12,258 nt of DNA. Source: a candidate division WOR-3 bacterium. Lineage in GTDB: Bacteria > SDB-A. Under the pieces are notes generated by a model. That model did no database searches. It worked only from the letters and a program-made list of their open reading frames with translations, and had not been told where the DNA came from. Of the stretch, positions 447 to 11,278 are shown one piece after another. The translations under genes were made by a program, and so were the position numbers. How positions within the stretch are numbered: position 1 is the stretch's first letter; the number at the start of each line of letters is the position of its first letter. The stretch lies in assembly GCA_016926475.1 (NCBI GenBank), contig JAFGON010000099.1, positions 1-12,258 on the forward strand, read 5' to 3'.

Positions 447-467
447 ATAATTAACTGAAATAATTAT
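447..467. promoter_or_regulatory. 7-bp AT-only inverted repeat upstream of regulator gene
   Basis: ATAATTA (447-453) and TAATTAT (461-467) form a perfect 7-bp inverted repeat around a 7-base centre, abutting the TTGACA hexamer at 467-472. It could be a binding site or only a product of local A+T richness. Together with the repeat at 419-436 and the box at 486-505, it makes three palindromes in under 90 bases before the regulator gene. Confidence 0.25.
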
Positions 468-495
468 TGACATGATACTGAAAATATGTTAGTGA
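467..495 (+). promoter_or_regulatory. Candidate promoter of the DtxR-like regulator
   Basis: A perfect -35 hexamer TTGACA (467-472) is followed after 17 bases by TAGTGA (490-495), a poor -10 element. Transcription would start near 502-504, which would make the message nearly leaderless and fits the absence of a good Shine-Dalgarno sequence before the ATG at 504. The operator-like box 486-505 covers the -10 region. The -35 is convincing; the -10 is weak. Confidence 0.4.
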
Positions 496-505
496 AGTCT
501 AATAT
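486..505. promoter_or_regulatory. DtxR-type operator box 1 (autoregulatory)
   Basis: The 20-mer ATGTTAGTGAAGTCTAATAT has the inverted core TTAG-N6-CTAA flanked by AT. It matches the two boxes before feoA at 15 fixed positions. TTAG...CTAA arms are the hallmark of DtxR/IdeR/SirR-family operators. It overlaps the -10 region and runs into the ATG at 504, so binding would block transcription of the regulator itself. Confidence 0.7.
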
Positions 506-974
506 GGAAGAGAGAAAATTTCAGATTACTTTGAGCTCGAGTTTAGAGGATTATTTGAAGACGATATTCGAAATTTGTAAAAAAAACGGCAAGGTAAGAA
601 TAACTGACATAAGCAACGAGCTAGACGTTGAAAAACCCTCTGTGACATTTGCCATAAAAAAACTTAAAAACCTAAAACTTGTAGAACATGAAAAATACGA
701 AGATATAACTCTAACTGAAAAAGGGAGAATTAAGGCAAACCAAATCCTGTTTCGTCACAACATATTGTACAGAATTTTGCACGATTTTCTGGGGACACCC
801 CATAAATTCGCTGAAAAAGACGCTCACAGAATAGAACATGTTTTGAGCGAAATTTCTCTTGATAGACTTTCATTGTTCGTTGACCTCTTCGATAAAAAAA
901 ACGGTATTGATATAGGAAAATGGCAAAAGTTTTTTGAATCTTATGTCAAAAAAGCAGAAATTGAAAAATCATAG
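504..974 (+). CDS. DtxR/MntR-family iron- or manganese-dependent transcriptional repressor
   Basis: 156 aa from the ATG at 504. Residues 11-75 form the winged-helix DNA-binding domain (SLEDYLKTIFEI, then ITDISNELDVEKPSVTFAIKKL as the helix-turn-helix, then a wing ending LTEKG). Residues 80-130 form the metal-binding and dimerisation domain with RHNIL and the signature AHRIEHVLS. Likely metal ligands by comparison with MntR/DtxR are D16, H85, H108, E111 and H112. There is no C-terminal SH3/FeoA-like domain, so it is the short MntR-like form. The ATG at 486 is in frame, but its first six codons are the operator box itself, so 504 is preferred; neither has a good Shine-Dalgarno. It lies directly upstream of feoAB, whose promoter carries two copies of the same box, making it the probable Feo repressor with metal as co-repressor. 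Whether it senses Fe(II) or Mn(II) cannot be read from sequence. Confidence 0.88.
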   Translation: MEERKFQITLSSSLEDYLKTIFEICKKNGKVRITDISNELDVEKPSVTFAIKKLKNLKLVEHEKYEDITLTEKGRIKANQILFRHNILYRILHDFLGTPHKFAEKDAHRIEHVLSEISLDRLSLFVDLFDKKNGIDIGKWQKFFESYVKKAEIEKS

Positions 975-987
975 AAGAAAAAAAATT

Positions 988-1016
988 TTAACCATAATGT
1001 TAGTCCCGTCTAATAT
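988..1016 (+). promoter_or_regulatory. Candidate upstream feoA promoter
   Basis: TTAACC (988-993) and TAATAT (1011-1016), spaced by 17 bases, make a plausible sigma-70-like promoter just after the regulator stop codon. Its -10 is the right arm of operator box 2. Hexamers match consensus only partly. Confidence 0.3.
997..1016. promoter_or_regulatory. DtxR-type operator box 2 (feoA upstream)
   Basis: ATGTTAGTCCCGTCTAATAT shares ATGTTAGT and CTAATAT, at the same spacing, with boxes 1 and 3. It lies 22 bases past the regulator stop codon and 51 bp (about five helical turns) before box 3, so proteins bound to both would sit on the same DNA face. Confidence 0.7.
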
Positions 1017-1039: not shown

Positions 1040-1067
1040 TTGCCGCAATGTTAGTTAAAACTAATAT
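1040..1067 (+). promoter_or_regulatory. Candidate proximal feoA promoter
   Basis: TTGCCG (1040-1045) and TAATAT (1062-1067) are spaced by 16 bases. The -10 is the right arm of operator box 3. Transcription would start near 1074, just before the AGGAGG ribosome binding site (1077-1082), leaving a very short leader, which is a mild argument for the upstream promoter instead. Confidence 0.35.
1048..1067. promoter_or_regulatory. DtxR-type operator box 3 (feoA proximal)
   Basis: ATGTTAGTTAAAACTAATAT is the most symmetrical of the three boxes: TTAGTT and AACTAA flank a central AA, and the outer AT...AT also pairs. It covers the candidate -10 and lies 10 bases before the feoA Shine-Dalgarno. Repression by occlusion of RNA polymerase is the natural reading. 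Confidence 0.72.
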
Positions 1068-1086: not shown

Positions 1087-1332
1087 TTGATCGGAAAAAT
1101 CGGTGATTTATCCATCGGCGAAAAGGCAGTCATAGTCGGTTATGAAAAAAAAGGTGAAAAATACAGACAAAAACTGCTTTCAATGGGGCTTACGAAAGGA
1201 ACTGTGTTGACCCTTTTGAAACGCGCTCCTCTCGGGGACCCCGTGGAAATTTCAGTGTTGAATTACAAACTTTCACTGAGAAAAGATGAAGCGGATATTT
1301 TGATCTTGGCCGGAGAAAATTACCATGAATGA
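1087..1332 (+). CDS. feoA: FeoA, SH3-like accessory protein of ferrous iron transport
   Basis: 81 aa from a TTG start at 1087, preceded by a perfect AGGAGG (1077-1082) with a tight 4-base spacing. The protein shows the FeoA pattern: GDLSIGEKAVIVGY at the start, RQKLLSMGLTKGTVLTLL in the middle, APLGDPVEISV and finally LSLRKDEADILIL. FeoA is a small cytoplasmic SH3-fold protein that partners FeoB in Fe(II) import. The reading frame is open back to 934 with ATG codons at 934 and 1048, but those would translate the operator boxes and lack a ribosome binding site, and FeoA homologues begin near the L-x-x-L motif. Its last 8 bases overlap the feoB start, typical of translational coupling. Transcription is probably controlled by boxes 2 and 3. 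Confidence 0.9.
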   Translation: MIGKIGDLSIGEKAVIVGYEKKGEKYRQKLLSMGLTKGTVLTLLKRAPLGDPVEISVLNYKLSLRKDEADILILAGENYHE

Positions 1333-3622
1333 CACCATTGCAATAGTAGGAAATCCAAATTGCGGAAAATCAACGCTTTTCAATGGCCTCACTGGCGGGA
1401 ACATCAAGACCGGAAACTGGCCCGGCGTTACGGTTGAAAAGAGAGAAGGAAGTTTTAAAAAAGACAAAATCGCGGTCACGGTCGTCGACTTGCCTGGAAT
1501 ATACTCGTTTTCCGCGCATTCAGAAGACGAAAAGATCGCAAGAGACTATATTTTGAGCGGAGAGTCGAACATCATCATAAATATCGTCGACGCGACAAAC
1601 CTTGAAAGAAATCTATATCTGACGACCCAACTCATCGAGATGAAAATTCCTGTTTTACTTGTCCTGAACATGATGGATCTCGCTGAAAAACAAAAGATGG
1701 AAATAGACATCAAAGGTCTTTCAAAATTGCTCGATTTACCCGTTATGGCCATCAGCGCCGTTCAACAAGATGATATAGCAAAAGTTAAGATTGAAGTTAT
1801 GAAAAGAATCTCAGACCCAAAAGTATCAAATGTCGAAGTGGAATATCCAAACGAAGTTGAATCAGTGATATCGAAATGGCAGGAAAAAACAACCAAAACA
1901 TCCATGGCTATGTCTATTGACTCGAGGTGGATTGCCTTAAAACTCATGGAAAACGATGCATGGCTGAAAAGAAAAGTGTTTGAAAACGACGGTTTTACCG
2001 AAAGAGAAATACTCAAAGAGCAAAGCAATATTGAGAACATATTAAAAGATACACCAGATGTAATTTGCGCGGATCACCGTTATGGATTCATACATGGAAT
2101 ATCTAAAAAAGTTTTAAAAAGAGCTGAGCCACAAACGACATTCACCGAAAGAATTGACGGGATTGTTTTGAGCAGGTTTTGGGGTATACCCGTATTTCTT
2201 GCGGCGATGCTTGTCGTCTTTTGGACGACAATAACAATAGGCGGAGCTTTTATAGATTTTTTTGATATTTTGTTCGGGACTGTATTCGTCGATGGATTGG
2301 GCACCGTTTTAGATAAAATCGGGACTCCCTCTCTGCTGACGACTTTTTTGGCAAACGGTGTCGGCGGAGGAATTCAAATAGTCTCAACTTTTGTGCCAAT
2401 AATATTTTTCATGTTCTTGATGCTTTCAATCCTCGAAGACAGCGGTTACATGGCAAGAGCCGCTTTTGTTATGGACCGTTTTCTGCGGTTTATCGGCTTG
2501 CCCGGGAAATCGTTCATCCCGTTGCTCATAGGTTTCGGTTGCACTGTTCCCGCTGTAATGGCAACAAGGACGTTGGAGAGCAAAAAAGACAAATTTCTGA
2601 CAATTTTTATGACCCCCTTTATGTCTTGCGGAGCGAGACTTCCGGTTTACGCTCTTTTCGTCTCGGTTTTTTTTCAGAAAAACGGAGGATTGGTCGTTTT
2701 CTCTCTTTACATAACTGGAATAATCATCGCCATCCTCACGGGGTTGTTGCTCAAAAAAACTCTTTTCAGAGGTGAAGTTTCGTACTTGATCATGGAACTC
2801 CCTCCTTACCACCGACCGAGGTTCAGGCATATATTGCTGCATACTTGGGAAAAACTTAAGGGTTTTTTGCTTCGGGCAGGACAGGTGATCGTTCTTGTGG
2901 TAATTGTGCTGAGCTTACTAAATTCTCTCGGCACAGACGGAAGTATTGGAAACGAGAACAGCGAAAAATCTATTCTTGCAGCGGTTGGAAAATTTTTAAC
3001 CCCTGTGTTCCAGCCCATAGGTATTGAACAAAAAAACTGGCCGGCAACGGTGGGTATCTTTACCGGTTTGTTTGCCAAAGAAGCTGTTGTCGGCGCTCTG
3101 AATTCCCTCTATGAACAGATGGGTTTTTCAGAAAACACTTTAGAACAGTCAGAATTTGACTTTTGGGGCAGTATTAAAGAAGCCATTATATCCGTGCCCA
3201 TAAATCTAAAAGGAATTATAGGCAGTGCAGTTGACCCCCTCGGTTTGGGGTTGGTTAAAATTCGCGACAAAGATACCCTCGCCGAAGAGATTGGCGCGGA
3301 AGCGGCTCTCTTCTCGTCAATCCAAACATATTTTTCAAAGGGAAAATATCAGGCATATGCTTATCTTCTGTTTATTTTACTCTATTTCCCTTGTGTTGCG
3401 GCTTTCGGAGCAATAACAAAGGAAATGGGTCTCGCATTTGGACTATTAAACGCGGGATATTCAACCATAGTAGCTTGGATCGTGGCAACTTTGTTTTTCC
3501 AGATTACAACCGGTCACAATGTGTTTTGGATTGCGTTTTCTGTCGTTTTATCCGTGTTCATTGCAATTCTTTTCTACGCGTTGAAATACATGAAAATTTT
3601 TAAAACCCAAAACCTTGAGTGA
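1325..3622 (+). CDS. feoB: FeoB, GTPase-linked ferrous iron transporter
   Basis: 765 aa, close to the usual full length. The N-terminal G domain has GNPNCGKS (residues 9-16, P-loop), the switch region GVTVEK (34-39), DLPG (55-58), NMMD (115-118) and ISA (143-145). A helical regulatory segment runs to about 275. The membrane part has the first Gate region around 396-445 with GFGCTVPA and MSCGARLPVY (C406 and C435 are the gate cysteines), LPPYHRP at 492-498, the second Gate with GLFAKEAVVGALN (581-593) and LLYFPC (685-690), and a closing helix. It sits in the inner membrane and carries Fe(II) into the cytoplasm. It overlaps feoA by 8 bases, and a GGAG lies about 10 bases before its ATG. No feoC follows; an outer-membrane porin comes next after 31 bases. 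Confidence 0.97.
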   Translation: MNDTIAIVGNPNCGKSTLFNGLTGGNIKTGNWPGVTVEKREGSFKKDKIAVTVVDLPGIYSFSAHSEDEKIARDYILSGESNIIINIVDATNLERNLYLTTQLIEMKIPVLLVLNMMDLAEKQKMEIDIKGLSKLLDLPVMAISAVQQDDIAKVKIEVMKRISDPKVSNVEVEYPNEVESVISKWQEKTTKTSMAMSIDSRWIALKLMENDAWLKRKVFENDGFTEREILKEQSNIENILKDTPDVICADHRYGFIHGISKKVLKRAEPQTTFTERIDGIVLSRFWGIPVFLAAMLVVFWTTITIGGAFIDFFDILFGTVFVDGLGTVLDKIGTPSLLTTFLANGVGGGIQIVSTFVPIIFFMFLMLSILEDSGYMARAAFVMDRFLRFIGLPGKSFIPLLIGFGCTVPAVMATRTLESKKDKFLTIFMTPFMSCGARLPVYALFVSVFFQKNGGLVVFSLYITGIIIAILTGLLLKKTLFRGEVSYLIMELPPYHRPRFRHILLHTWEKLKGFLLRAGQVIVLVVIVLSLLNSLGTDGSIGNENSEKSILAAVGKFLTPVFQPIGIEQKNWPATVGIFTGLFAKEAVVGALNSLYEQMGFSENTLEQSEFDFWGSIKEAIISVPINLKGIIGSAVDPLGLGLVKIRDKDTLAEEIGAEAALFSSIQTYFSKGKYQAYAYLLFILLYFPCVAAFGAITKEMGLAFGLLNAGYSTIVAWIVATLFFQITTGHNVFWIAFSVVLSVFIAILFYALKYMKIFKTQNLE

Positions 3623-3653
3623 CAATGAAAAACACAACGTCAGGAGTAAAAAG

Positions 3654-4730
3654 ATGAAAGCTTTGAAAGAAAAATTGTTTTTGTGCGGCTCGTTCCTTTT
3701 TTTTATAACCTTGTCGTTATTTTTACCAAAATCCCTCTTTTCACAAGATATAAATCTACCGGAAATGCACGCTACTCTGTCAATCCAATACAATTCATAT
3801 TTCGGGGAAGACGACACCGTTCTGGGATACCTCGTTCCGGATGACAATTTTGAAATGCGTTATGCTGCAGTTGAATTCGAGGACGAATTGAACGATTATG
3901 TCGAGTATAATTTCGGAATAGGAGCCGCAAGTTGTCAGGGTTCAGGCAGCCAAATCAGCTTGATGGAAGCCGGAATCTTCTTTAAACCCTTTGATTTTGT
4001 GAAATTTGGTTTTTCCAAAGGGCATATTATGCGAGGTTTCGAGGCCTATGAAGGATGCCCCGAGGTTTTGACCGCGGAAAAACCGCGCTTTATCAACACC
4101 TTTTCGGTGTCATGCCACCCCATGGGCGCAGTTATCCTTTTGGACTACAACTGGACTGATTTAACAGGCCTTTCCGTCCAGCTCTCTTATCTTAACGGCT
4201 CTCAGAGAAACACAGCCGAAAAAGAACATGATATAAACGCCGGTATGGTTTTTCGGACGCCAATTCAAGGTCTTTCTTTAGCAGGATTCTACAACGATCT
4301 GAAACTGGATTTTGAATACGACAATACATTGGACAAAGCGTCAAGAAGCGGATTCGGTTTTGACTATGAAGATTTCAACATTAATTTAAGGGGTGAATAC
4401 TATACAGGCAAAGGGTTTTTCAGTTCATATCCTGAAGTCAAATCAGAAGACCTTCAGATGAGCGCTTATTATATTGAAGGCGGTTACAAAATAAAAATAA
4501 ATTCGGAGATATTTCCCTTCATTCAACCCTACATGATGTACCAATCCTGGGACAAAGCTAACAACACCGACGGTGAACATGTCTGGACTTATTTGACCGC
4601 AGGGATGACTTTTGGCCTCGGTTCTGAGAACACAAAACTGCGGCTTGACTTCGAAACATCTTTGAATTTTCCTGAAGACACACCTCGTGAAGCGAGCCGA
4701 GTTTTAGTCAGACTTCAAACGCATTTTTAA
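3654..4730 (+). CDS. OprO/P-like outer-membrane porin, probably in the feo operon
   Basis: 358 aa from the ATG at 3654, which has AGGAG (3642-3646) 7 bases upstream; a TTG at 3615 overlapping feoB is in frame but lacks a ribosome binding site. A signal peptide covers about residues 1-30 (basic start, long hydrophobic stretch, ending SLFS before QD). The mature protein has alternating aromatic and polar strands and ends in LQTHF, a terminal phenylalanine typical of BAM-targeted barrels. The stretch FVKFGFSKGHIMRGFE...EKPRFINTF...GAVILLDY resembles the phosphate-selective porin O/P family pattern (vGqfk..f..E.......e........GV.l). Three cysteines (94, 135, 154) fall in probable loops, which is uncommon for porins. 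It lies 31 bases after feoB and 15 before the next gene, so it is probably co-transcribed and iron-regulated. Substrate unknown; entry of Fe(II) or a small iron complex is an inference from context. Confidence 0.72.
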   Translation: MKALKEKLFLCGSFLFFITLSLFLPKSLFSQDINLPEMHATLSIQYNSYFGEDDTVLGYLVPDDNFEMRYAAVEFEDELNDYVEYNFGIGAASCQGSGSQISLMEAGIFFKPFDFVKFGFSKGHIMRGFEAYEGCPEVLTAEKPRFINTFSVSCHPMGAVILLDYNWTDLTGLSVQLSYLNGSQRNTAEKEHDINAGMVFRTPIQGLSLAGFYNDLKLDFEYDNTLDKASRSGFGFDYEDFNINLRGEYYTGKGFFSSYPEVKSEDLQMSAYYIEGGYKIKINSEIFPFIQPYMMYQSWDKANNTDGEHVWTYLTAGMTFGLGSENTKLRLDFETSLNFPEDTPREASRVLVRLQTHF

Positions 4731-4745
4731 ACTCAAGGAGCAAAA

Positions 4746-5573
4746 ATGAATATTTTGAAAATTTTATTTGCGATAACATCGGTGCTATTTTTCCCCGTTG
4801 AACATTCCCTCAACTCACAGACAATCGAGCCAATCTACGACATGTTTACCGACCCAGACCATGCTACAGGACACCCTGTAGGGGAACTATGGGTGGCAGA
4901 TTACGCTCCCCTCAGCAACTATCAGAGGATAATGATCATGTTCGATCTTTCCGCATATACCGGAGGGAAGGTCGACAGCGCTTTTTTAAACCTTGACAGA
5001 TTTTTTGGCTGCCCCAGCGGAACACCTACAAATGTAAAATTATACGCAATAACTGAAACTTGGAACGAATCCTGGCCGGAAAACGTTCACATTTCTCATG
5101 GGACGACAGAATGGGCAAGTTACAGTTTTATTGTCAATGGATGGCACAGAATAGATATCACATCACTCGTAAATTCCTGGCTCGACGAGTCCGTGGCTAA
5201 TTACGGCCTGGTTTTAAGAGGTCTGTCCGGAAGTAAATGGAGCAAGTTTTATTCACGGGAAGCTTCACCCGGCTTCTGCCCTTATCTTGAACTTGTCAAC
5301 TACACCGGCGTGGATGAATCCCAGGGCAACATTTCCCGAATCATTGAAATCAACGCCTATCCGAATCCATTCTATTCACATTGTCAAATAACAGTTCCAG
5401 AAGTATCATCAATTGAAATAGTGGCTTTGGACGGAAGAGTAATTTATGGGGCTGAAAACTTTCGGGGCAACTTCACATGGAAGCCCAGTGAATCGGAAAA
5501 AAGCGGCGTCTATTTCGTCAGGGCTCTGTCCAACGGTCAAAACTTTTTCAGAAAAATCACTTACATCAAATAA
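4746..5573 (+). CDS. Secreted DNRLRE-type protein with T9SS type A sorting domain
   Basis: 275 aa; AAGGAG (4735-4740) stands 5 bases before the ATG. Residues 1-24 look like a signal peptide ending near LNSQ. Residues 30-185 resemble the DNRLRE/CBM96-like beta-sandwich: the strand RIMIMFDLSA, then VDSAFLNLDRF, a W-rich middle (ETWNESWPEN), WHRIDITSLVNSWL and YGLVLRGL. Residues 200-275 are a Por-secretion-type C-terminal domain with YPNPF (205-209), VSSIEIVALDGRVIYG and SGVYFVRA. Such a protein is exported by Sec and then by T9SS and left on the surface or released. It follows the porin by 15 bases and appears to belong to the feo operon. The ligand of the DNRLRE-like domain is unknown; carbohydrate or surface attachment is possible. 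Confidence 0.75.
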   Translation: MNILKILFAITSVLFFPVEHSLNSQTIEPIYDMFTDPDHATGHPVGELWVADYAPLSNYQRIMIMFDLSAYTGGKVDSAFLNLDRFFGCPSGTPTNVKLYAITETWNESWPENVHISHGTTEWASYSFIVNGWHRIDITSLVNSWLDESVANYGLVLRGLSGSKWSKFYSREASPGFCPYLELVNYTGVDESQGNISRIIEINAYPNPFYSHCQITVPEVSSIEIVALDGRVIYGAENFRGNFTWKPSESEKSGVYFVRALSNGQNFFRKITYIK

Positions 5574-5593
5574 ACTTAATCCTAGGAGGAGAC

Positions 5594-6721
5594 ATGAGCC
5601 TTTTTTTCACAATTATTTCAGTGATTACAGCAATCGCCTGCCCTTTAGATCCCTTTTCAGGCGATTCACCTCTCGATCCCGCTCCACCGATATATTTGAC
5701 AGAAAACACAGGCCGGGGTCTGGGAGACATTCTTCTTACAATTGATGTTCTTGCCCTGGGAATCGACGGGCCGAGCGGACTGAGCTGGGATGGTCAGTAT
5801 TTATACGTAGCCTCCTTGCTGAAAGACTCTGTTTTTGTTCTGGATCCTTTCGTACCCGCAATCATCAACAAATGGGCGACGGACGCTTTCGCGGCTAGTC
5901 CCTATGGGGTCGCTTTTGATCAAAACCTCTGGGTAACCCATATATCCCCCGACACTGCGAGAGAATACACGGTTTCTGGAACAGCGACCGGCAACGCATT
6001 TTGCACCGAACCGAGCGGAGCTCTTTATTGCGCAGATGGAAGCGAATGGTGGCAAAGCGGTGAAGTCTGGTTTATCGGGATTGGATCCGCTTGCGGAAAC
6101 CAGGCGATCAAGTTTTCTGTCCCCTCCGGCACGGTTCTCGATTCAATAGGAGATCCTGCCTGGACTTATATCTCTCAGCGCGGGATGACCTATGATCCTT
6201 TCAATCAGAAATTCTGGATCGGGGGATGGAACAGCGATTCAGTTTGGGAGTTGAACACAGACGGATCTCCTACTGGAAGAACTTTTTTCATGGACGGTTG
6301 CGCCGGCATTGCCTACGACTGGCAGTCGACATACCACCCGACTCCAGTACTTTGGATTTCAAGACAGGCGGCAGACCAAATTGTAATGGTAGATGCCGAC
6401 AATCCAGCCATGGGGGTCGAAGAATACCCTGTCGAAAATTCATCTAAAGGCGGATTTCGCTTGGTTTCGCTGACCGACCAGAGCAATCGGGTTGAATTCA
6501 GGATTTACACTCCAGCCGGGGGGCAAGTACATTTCAGTGTTTACGATATAATTGGCTGTAATATTCTGGAAAGAAATCTTGTCAACCTCAACCAGGGTTA
6601 CAACACAATTTACTGGGATAGAAAGGATGAACAAGGTCACGACGTATCCGCCGGAGTATATTTCGTCAGATTAAACAATTCAGAAACCACAGAAACAGGA
6701 AAATTCATGATTATGCTTTAG
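5594..6721 (+). CDS. Secreted beta-propeller protein with FlgD/T9SS-like C-terminal domain
   Basis: 375 aa; a strong AGGAGG (5584-5589) is 4 bases before the ATG, and the gene starts 20 bases after the previous stop. The N-terminus is hydrophobic (residues 1-16, ending ITAIAC) but has no lysine or arginine, so it is an atypical signal peptide; C16 could be a lipobox cysteine. Residues 55-275 show propeller-like repeats: GLSWDGQYLYVAS...FVLDP, YGVAFDQNLWVTH, GMTYDPFNQKFWIGG...VWEL, and VLWISRQAADQIVMVD. Four cysteines (137, 146, 167, 235) may pair. Residues 285-375 form an Ig-like tail with VHFSVYDIIGCNIL, YNTIYWDRKDEQG and AGVYFVRL, matching FlgD-like/T9SS sorting modules but without YPNPF. 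It seems to be the last gene of the feo operon. Function unknown. Confidence 0.7.
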   Translation: MSLFFTIISVITAIACPLDPFSGDSPLDPAPPIYLTENTGRGLGDILLTIDVLALGIDGPSGLSWDGQYLYVASLLKDSVFVLDPFVPAIINKWATDAFAASPYGVAFDQNLWVTHISPDTAREYTVSGTATGNAFCTEPSGALYCADGSEWWQSGEVWFIGIGSACGNQAIKFSVPSGTVLDSIGDPAWTYISQRGMTYDPFNQKFWIGGWNSDSVWELNTDGSPTGRTFFMDGCAGIAYDWQSTYHPTPVLWISRQAADQIVMVDADNPAMGVEEYPVENSSKGGFRLVSLTDQSNRVEFRIYTPAGGQVHFSVYDIIGCNILERNLVNLNQGYNTIYWDRKDEQGHDVSAGVYFVRLNNSETTETGKFMIML

Positions 6722-8767: not shown

Positions 8768-9376
8768 TTACTTAAATAGTGGAATCATGAACTTGAATCC
8801 TCCGCTTTCGACTGCACCGACAGCAAAATCCGGATACTCCCATTGCAGTTCATGACCGTCCACGGAAAAATTCTCCCAATACCGGAAATAGAGGGTTTCG
8901 GTAATTGGTATGATTGAAATATCGTTTCCCGTCTGATTTTAATCGAAATCTTCGCTGAAATACATTTCTTTTGTGAGAAGATCCAGAAAAGGGCTGAATT
9001 CTCCAGTACCCGAGACTGATTGAGGGGCAATCTCTTTTTCCCGGAGTTTCCCACACAGAAGCTATTTCATAGCTTTCGATTTTTCCAGTCCCATTTATCT
9101 GTGACATCGGTATTACACCATGCGATCTCGTCGGACCCGCCGGCACTTCAAACCATGCGTCGAAGGCGAGTTAAATCGAAAGTCCAAACTTGACGTCGTC
9201 GAATTTTCCGATTGATGTATATGAGCTAAATCCGCACTGTTCACCGTAACAGCTGGTCTGCCTGTTGTAACTTAAACCGATAATTATGTCGTAACGGGCC
9301 GAACCCCCGAAAACAGTTTTTTCCCCGTGTTCAGAACAAAGAGGTAAAACTATAAAAAATAGTGCTGTTTTTTCAT
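8768..9376 (-). pseudogene. Broken gene for an exported protein of about 200 aa
   Basis: An ATG (complement of 9374-9376) with AGGAG just upstream is followed by six A; one more A would open the frame into a signal-peptide-like KKTALFFIVLPLCSE and a beta-rich body (GGSARYDIIIGLSYNRQ, SSYTSIGKFDDVKFGLSI). That frame meets TAA at 9171-9173, continues with LAFDAWFEVPAG...GTGKIESYEIASVW, then must shift near 9030-9055 into a frame reading REKEIAPQSVSGTGEFSP, TKEMYFSEDFD, a second TAA at 8939-8941, ITETLYFRYWENF, QWEYPDFAVGAVE and FKFMIPLFK, ending at 8768. The reconstructed product looks exported and beta-rich, perhaps an outer-membrane or surface protein. Two frame lesions and two stops argue for true decay. 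It may once have preceded the propeller gene, 61 bases downstream, in one transcript. Family not recognised. Confidence 0.65.
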
Positions 9377-10738: not shown

Positions 10739-11278
10739 ATGAAGCCAAGAGGACCTCTGATGATAGAGCACCGTTTGATAGAAAAAATGTTGAAATTAGC
10801 TGAAAAGGAACTGGAATCTATCAAAAAAAACAAATCTGTCGATCCTCTTTTCATCGACGCAATCGTAGATTTTATCCGAACATACGCCGACCGTACGCAC
10901 CATGGCAAAGAAGAAGACATACTTTTCAAAGAATTGGAAAATAAGATACTTGACGCCAAAGACACAAAGGGCATGCAGGAACTGATAGACGAGCATATTT
11001 CAGCGAGGAAAGCAGTAAAAGAACTTGTCGAAGCAAAAACAAAATTCATCCATGGTGATTCAAGCAGTATTGAGACGATAATTGATAAATTGACCTTTCT
11101 GACAAATTTTTATCCGGTACATATAGAAAAAGAGGACAAGGTTTTTTTCCCTGACACCGAAAAATACTTTTCAGATGAAGAATTAGATAATATGCTGAAA
11201 GAATTCTTGGAGTTTGACAGGAAAATGATCCATGAGAAATACAATAAACTCTATCAACTTTTATCTGAAAATTATTGA
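10739..11278 (+). CDS. Hemerythrin HHE-domain protein
   Basis: 179 aa; AAGGAGG (10727-10733) is 5 bases before the ATG. It shows the diiron four-helix-bundle pattern: H11 in MIEHRLIE, HHGKEED (H54, H55, E58) followed by ILFKEL, H86 in LIDEHISAR, and H128 with E132 in YPVHIEKEDKVFFP. These are the expected ligands for an oxo-bridged diiron centre. Bacterial cytoplasmic hemerythrin-like proteins bind O2 or NO, help repair iron-sulfur centres or sense oxygen; which applies here cannot be told. There is no signal peptide or fused signalling domain. The gene stands 87 bases before a methyltransferase gene on the same strand, and the TTGACA overlapping its stop codon suggests that gene can be transcribed separately. 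No DtxR-type box is visible upstream. Confidence 0.9.
   Translation: MKPRGPLMIEHRLIEKMLKLAEKELESIKKNKSVDPLFIDAIVDFIRTYADRTHHGKEEDILFKELENKILDAKDTKGMQELIDEHISARKAVKELVEAKTKFIHGDSSSIETIIDKLTFLTNFYPVHIEKEDKVFFPDTEKYFSDEELDNMLKEFLEFDRKMIHEKYNKLYQLLSENY

Follow-up and report, generated by a model that had tools for sequence, protein, structure and literature searches.

A probable metal-regulated feoAB operon extended by a putative outer-membrane porin and exported DNRLRE protein in a candidate division WOR-3 bacterium

Introduction

Transport of Fe2+ across the inner membrane by FeoB together with FeoA is a property of the protein family, and the crossing of the outer membrane that precedes it is usually ascribed to general porins. 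The stretch of DNA considered here, referred to as the window, is 12,258 nucleotides of contig JAFGON010000099.1 from a candidate division WOR-3 bacterium, on which feoA and feoB are followed by ORFs for a predicted porin and an exported protein of the DNRLRE family (the porin-DNRLRE cassette). Outer-membrane proteins have been linked to ferrous iron in several bacteria. Fur-regulated ‘psp’ and OprB-type porins of Geobacter and Desulfuromonas were predicted to serve in its uptake, with one predicted Fur-regulated porin of Geobacter lying directly upstream of feoA-feoA-feoB (Rodionov et al. 2004, PMC545781, in its text on these porins). FupA of Francisella is described as a pore-forming outer-membrane Fe2+ protein (PMC7432831, in its account of FupA), and OmpC of E. 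coli as participating in Feo-linked uptake (PMC7315122, in its account of OmpC). For the BtuS/FeoAB system of Bacteroides fragilis, iron is removed from heme in the periplasm and feeds FeoAB (PMC6460266). The statement of an earlier note on this DNA that Feo has no dedicated outer-membrane part is thus too strong, being preceded by the Geobacter porins and FupA as these sources describe them (PMC545781, PMC7432831).

The reading put forward here, to which a probability of about 0.6 is given, is that the window carries a metal-repressed ferrous-iron operon, dtxR-feoA-feoB, to which an outer-membrane cassette of two genes, for the porin and the DNRLRE protein, has been joined.

Organisation of the predicted operon

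The following features were identified in the window.

467-505, plus strand: predicted promoter/operator for the repressor gene, with TTGACA at 467-472, 15 nucleotides, then GTTAGTGAAGTCTAATA (shared layout, genome pattern scan)
486-971, plus strand: DtxR/MntR-type metal-dependent repressor, 162 amino acids (Fe_dep_repr_C E=1.1e-14, Fe_dep_repress E=1.2e-13)
997-1016, plus strand: second operator-like palindrome, ATGTTAGTCCCGTCTAATAT, upstream of feoA
1048-1067, plus strand: third operator-like palindrome, ATGTTAGTTAAAACTAATAT, approximately 20 bp ahead of feoA
1087-1332, plus strand: feoA (TTG start, AGGAGG ribosome site; FeoA PF04023 E=1.5e-17)
1325-3622, plus strand: feoB, 765 amino acids (FeoB_N, FeoB_Cyto, Gate and FeoB_C domains; NCBIfam FeoB 725.9 bits)
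3654-4730, plus strand: predicted porin of a divergent Porin_O_P subfamily (ATG start with AGGAG; marginal Pfam match, profile comparison, homologs)
4746-5573, plus strand: exported DNRLRE/CBM96 protein with a type IX secretion system (T9SS) sorting tail (DNRLRE 78.6 bits, T9SS tail 30.7 bits)
5594-6721, plus strand: exported repeat/propeller-like protein with a FlgD/T9SS-like tail (T9SS 25.0 bits, FlgD_ig 21.3 bits)

The earlier note had described five plus-strand genes from feoA to the propeller, separated by gaps of -8, 31, 15 and 20 bases, and this arrangement was borne out by coordinates and ribosome sites. The feoA and feoB genes overlap by 8 bp, FeoA thus being encoded beside feoB, ribosome sites precede all genes of the run save the overlapping feoB, and no terminator-like site was found on the plus strand in any of its intergenic gaps. 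The identities proposed for feoA and feoB also stood, with FeoB scoring above the NCBIfam equivalog cut-off of 683 bits, as did that of the DNRLRE protein with its T9SS tail; the T9SS C-terminal sorting domain TIGR04183 was above cut-off in both this protein and the propeller. The gene run was found to start earlier than first noted, with the DtxR/MntR-type repressor at its head. A longer form of the porin, from a TTG start at 3615, is unlikely, and the ATG with AGGAG at 3654 was preferred.

Recurrence of the porin-DNRLRE cassette

A search of 386 genomes returned two strong homologs of the porin, in genomes G655 (43%) and G574 (35%), and a profile search of 20 genomes of the phylum of G655 (G574 and the window genome lying outside these) added G711, G712 and G706 and, in truncated form, G705. 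Six members (the window, G655, G711, G712, G706 and G574) can be read beyond the porin, and in each of them the next same-strand gene encodes a DNRLRE homolog, with the window protein matching those of G655 and G574 at 41% and 36%, respectively, in BLASTP. The gene order supports the DNRLRE protein as a conserved companion of the porin.

The cassette also occurs apart from feo, mostly behind metal-sensing regulators. Fur (PF01475 E=3.8e-31) precedes the porin in G655 and G711, while the run in G706 and G705 consists of dtxR, a TonB-dependent receptor, an exported CbiX-like chelatase and the porin, followed in G706 by the DNRLRE gene, with a TTAGGTGCACCTAA-type box (TTAGG-N4-CCTAA-type) situated between dtxR and the receptor. 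G655, G711 and G712 share a genus, and so do G706 and G705; the cassette therefore counts as three independent lineages, one of which holds two operon types. The window’s own phylum appears to hold just four genomes, and because of this small size and because G574 shares neither genus nor family with the window genome, three phyla are very probably involved.

Two further observations concern these loci. The dtxR-TonB receptor-CbiX-like chelatase-porin runs at L210:5534-11805 (minus strand) and L211:1-4689 (minus strand), with the DNRLRE gene present in L210 only, resemble an operon for taking up a metal or tetrapyrrole iron. Between the porin and DNRLRE genes of G574 (L199:2636-3327) lies a membrane-protein-like frame with an in-frame TGA, representing either a pseudogene or recoding.

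Sequence features of the porin subfamily

The porin had been called an OprO/P-like barrel in the earlier note. A Porin_O_P match does exist, yet it is marginal in Pfam (21.8 bits against a cut-off of 20.9, over a short stretch), and the other members of the subfamily gave no match to Pfam Porin_O_P. Profile comparison of the subfamily with Porin_O_P-type proteins using hhalign gave a probability of 99.1 (E=1.7e-18, 315 columns). This relationship would suit an ordinary OprO/OprP-type anion or phosphate porin for general nutrition, an explanation considered very improbable given three properties of the subfamily. Its long members are strongly acidic (net charge about -22 to -38, against -2 for L022 and +2 for L023, both ordinary Porin_O_P members), with two other distant relatives likewise acidic at -15 and -19. 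Six long sequences share the invariant residues C94, G123-H124, R127-G-F, C135, E142-K-P and C154-H155 (window precursor numbering), a Cys/His motif missing from L022 and L023, which contain zero Cys. Finally, the neighbouring genes are metal regulators and not phosphate genes. The Cys/His motif may constitute a metal site. A sequence search of the PDB with the window porin returned nothing credible.

Repressor and operator-like palindromes

The repressor carries an N-terminal winged helix and a metal-binding/dimerisation domain (PF01325, PF02742), and its top NCBIfam match is MntR, under the cut-off of that model. Three GTTAG-N7-CTAA palindromes were identified at 488, 999 and 1050, the first at the repressor promoter and the other two ahead of feoA. 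On a pattern scan of the whole 2.15-Mb genome, the mismatch-free 17-letter motif was found at these three sites only, with a second dtxR-feoA-feoB locus (C71) among the few one-mismatch sites. The layout TTGACA-N15-GTTAG-N7 is shared with identical spacing by the window, C71 of G000, the congeners G001 and G002, and L058, and this constant spacing places the palindrome over the -10 region, as fits a repressor site. The TTAG-N6-CTAA core was found upstream of 23 of the 49 feo loci of the window’s FeoB subfamily (dinucleotide shuffles: mean 0.7, maximum 4) and of just one of 34 more distant FeoB loci. The palindromes are operator-like and are regarded as candidate operators of the window’s DtxR-type repressor. 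A DtxR/IdeR-like box (TTTAGGTTAGCCTAACCTAA) was also seen upstream of feoB in the feo locus of a Thermoprotei archaeon (L091:4660-4680).

The metal to which the repressor responds may differ from that of its relatives. Its metal site reads DAHRIEH, with His where the C71 paralog, both congeners and L046 have Cys (EACKIEH/DACRMEH), so that the Cys of the C-x-x-E-H signature (DtxR iron type versus MntR) is absent. Fe and Mn are both possible, Mn sensing staying so because of this His. The same residue bears on an alternative in which the cassette serves another metal or complex (Mn2+, or iron in a tetrapyrrole or chelate) and stands beside feoAB through shared DtxR-type control. In G706 and G705 the cassette stands behind genes for a TonB receptor and an exported chelatase of the CbiX-like type, a position that suggests a tetrapyrrole-linked metal and would agree with this alternative. 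Iron is indicated, in contrast, by feoAB lying 31 bp upstream in the same run and by Fur heading the cassette in G655 and G711, and the alternative is judged unlikely.

Other barrels downstream of feoB

An unrelated barrel family was found directly downstream of feoB in Kiritimatiellota-type genomes, being present in 83 of the 115 genomes searched; its likeness to TorF porins is weak and was seen in two members. Among the 30 best-scoring loci of this family (L159-L188), feoB lies upstream on the same strand in 21, and in 11 of these 21 a DtxR-type box precedes the barrel by no more than 320 bp (mean after shuffling 0.05), against none of the nine loci without feoB. One modelled member has 12 strands (predicted local distance difference test score, pLDDT, of 73.7), and its top PDB matches are outer-membrane barrels. 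A third, unrelated barrel is situated 18 bp after feoB in the Spirochaetes metagenome-assembled genome L046, where dtxR and a GTTAG palindrome lie upstream. Searching 198 relatives for it returned itself and one weak match, and this barrel looks lineage-specific. Both the Kiritimatiellota-type and the L046 barrels are also acidic. The Kiritimatiellota-type TorF-like feoB-barrel pair merits separate study.

Conservation of the gene order and the propeller gene

Conserved co-occurrence of the downstream genes with feoB had been raised by the earlier note. Among all genomes searched, only this contig shows the complete order feoAB-porin-DNRLRE-propeller; what recurs, very probably in three phyla, is the porin-DNRLRE pair. 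The window genome encodes three FeoB proteins, and the feo loci of its congeners (L126 and L127) group with the C71 copy and not with that of the window (tree support 100/100), for which reason conservation of the window operon across the genus was rejected. Both congener contigs stop 88-104 bp past feoB, leaving the downstream gene order unreadable there; a repeat possibly lies at these ends.

The propeller, which the earlier note had placed in the system, was rejected as a member of the unit, being matched mainly through its common T9SS/FlgD tail and not being conserved with the porin-DNRLRE unit. Its description as a propeller with a FlgD/T9SS-like tail held for the T9SS domain, the FlgD_ig match being under its Pfam cut-off and the propeller matches weak apart from the tail. 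T9SS tails are ordinary in the window genome (65 matches) and for this reason indicate only that a protein is exported. The N-terminus of the propeller (window 5594-5680) contains TAIAC, which could be a lipoprotein signal in place of an ordinary signal peptide, odd beside a T9SS tail.

These observations leave room for chance packing, in which unrelated envelope genes happen to follow feoB closely and are transcribed by read-through from the feoB promoter. The full order being unique to the contig, the commonness of propeller and T9SS tails in the genome and the lack of the porin in congeners all favour it. The recurrence of the porin-DNRLRE pair in three phyla, mostly beside metal regulators, speaks against it, as does that of feoB-barrel pairs in Kiritimatiellota, where a box can precede the barrel. 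Chance packing is accordingly thought quite improbable as an account of the locus, and it still holds for the propeller.

Other parts of the window include an ankyrin-like fragment in a broken-looking coding stretch at the left end (1-260) and a decayed-looking minus-strand gene (8785-9360), both judged by eye, and a hemerythrin-domain protein (10739-11278; PF01814 E=1.9e-14), a further iron-linked gene on the contig.

Proposed function

Given that the cassette is found repeatedly beside metal regulators and that feoB-barrel pairs are recurrent in Kiritimatiellota, the porin very probably serves Feo as an iron-regulated partner in the outer membrane, and together with the surface protein it probably forms an entrance through that membrane dedicated to iron. 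Under iron scarcity the DtxR-type repressor would leave the palindromes, allowing transcription of the whole unit; iron regulation of the downstream genes is suggested by the operators and neighbourhoods. The porin would then pass Fe2+, or a small Fe2+ complex, through the outer membrane, its acidity and invariant Cys/His/Glu motif possibly favouring a metal cation, and FeoB with FeoA would move Fe2+ through the inner membrane. The DNRLRE protein would be exported, probably via the type IX system, and may act at the cell surface jointly with the porin, whether as anchor, gate or metal-binding accessory, which is the least certain of these steps; a role for it in surface iron capture is unproven. 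The envelope-spanning ferrous-iron route imagined in the earlier note is in this way retained for the porin partner and its DNRLRE companion, and not for the propeller.

Several points weigh against the proposal of a ferrous-iron operon extended by this cassette. Among the porin-cassette loci, feoB is in the same run only in the window, and the G574 cassette is without an adjacent regulator and has a gap of 692 bp between its genes. The porin is absent from two congeners and a family-mate and is therefore not needed for Feo function there. Its three Cys may form disulfides instead of a metal site, and single-sequence AlphaFold2 prediction gave no usable model of it (pLDDT 30.5). Lastly, DtxR-type repressors can sense Mn, and the operators are predicted sites.

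A broader generalisation can be offered only tentatively, namely that a porin whose pore region holds a selective Cys/His metal site, together with a T9SS-exported DNRLRE protein, constitutes a hitherto undescribed two-protein, TonB-independent outer-membrane entry for Fe2+ that crosses phyla on Feo, Fur or DtxR operons, and that, more generally, Feo may often travel with its own iron-regulated barrel, three or more barrel families having been recruited independently.

Comparison with known systems

DtxR/IdeR/MntR-regulated feo loci resemble the window in their dtxR-feoA-feoB order and GTTAG-type palindromes, as seen in many Spirochaetota loci, and the window differs from them in the extension of the operon by a porin and a surface protein. 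Like the window porin as interpreted here, those of Geobacter and Desulfuromonas are predicted to be iron-regulated, include one that is weakly Porin_O_P-like and were speculated to admit ferrous iron; unlike it, they stand under Fur operators, not DtxR, and the text on these porins makes no mention of a DNRLRE partner (PMC545781). The ‘psp’ porins are likened to the window porin by description (PMC545781, same text). FupA with FeoB resembles the system proposed for the window in having a dedicated outer-membrane ferrous-iron protein and is a functional analogue, compared by description; the source’s account of FupA differs in describing no surface partner (PMC7432831). The G706/G705 cassette recalls the BtuS/FeoAB system of B. 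fragilis in its TonB receptor and exported chelatase-like protein (PMC6460266), although this chelatase is CbiX-like and not CobN-like, and the window run is without a receptor or chelatase gene.

No publication connecting DNRLRE proteins to porins and iron came up in a literature search. Iron-linked porins as such are already known, having been predicted in 2004, and FupA has been studied. What is new is the cassette of porin and DNRLRE protein, with its Cys/His motif and the variety of metal-regulated settings in which it occurs, as well as the pairing of feoB in Kiritimatiellota with a barrel that has a box of its own. With putatively iron-regulated barrels recurring beside feoB in unrelated phyla and a porin-surface pair led by Fur or DtxR, the assumption that general porins suffice becomes testable, and the cassette supplies defined genes and a mutable sequence motif for the question of how Fe2+ enters through the outer membrane.

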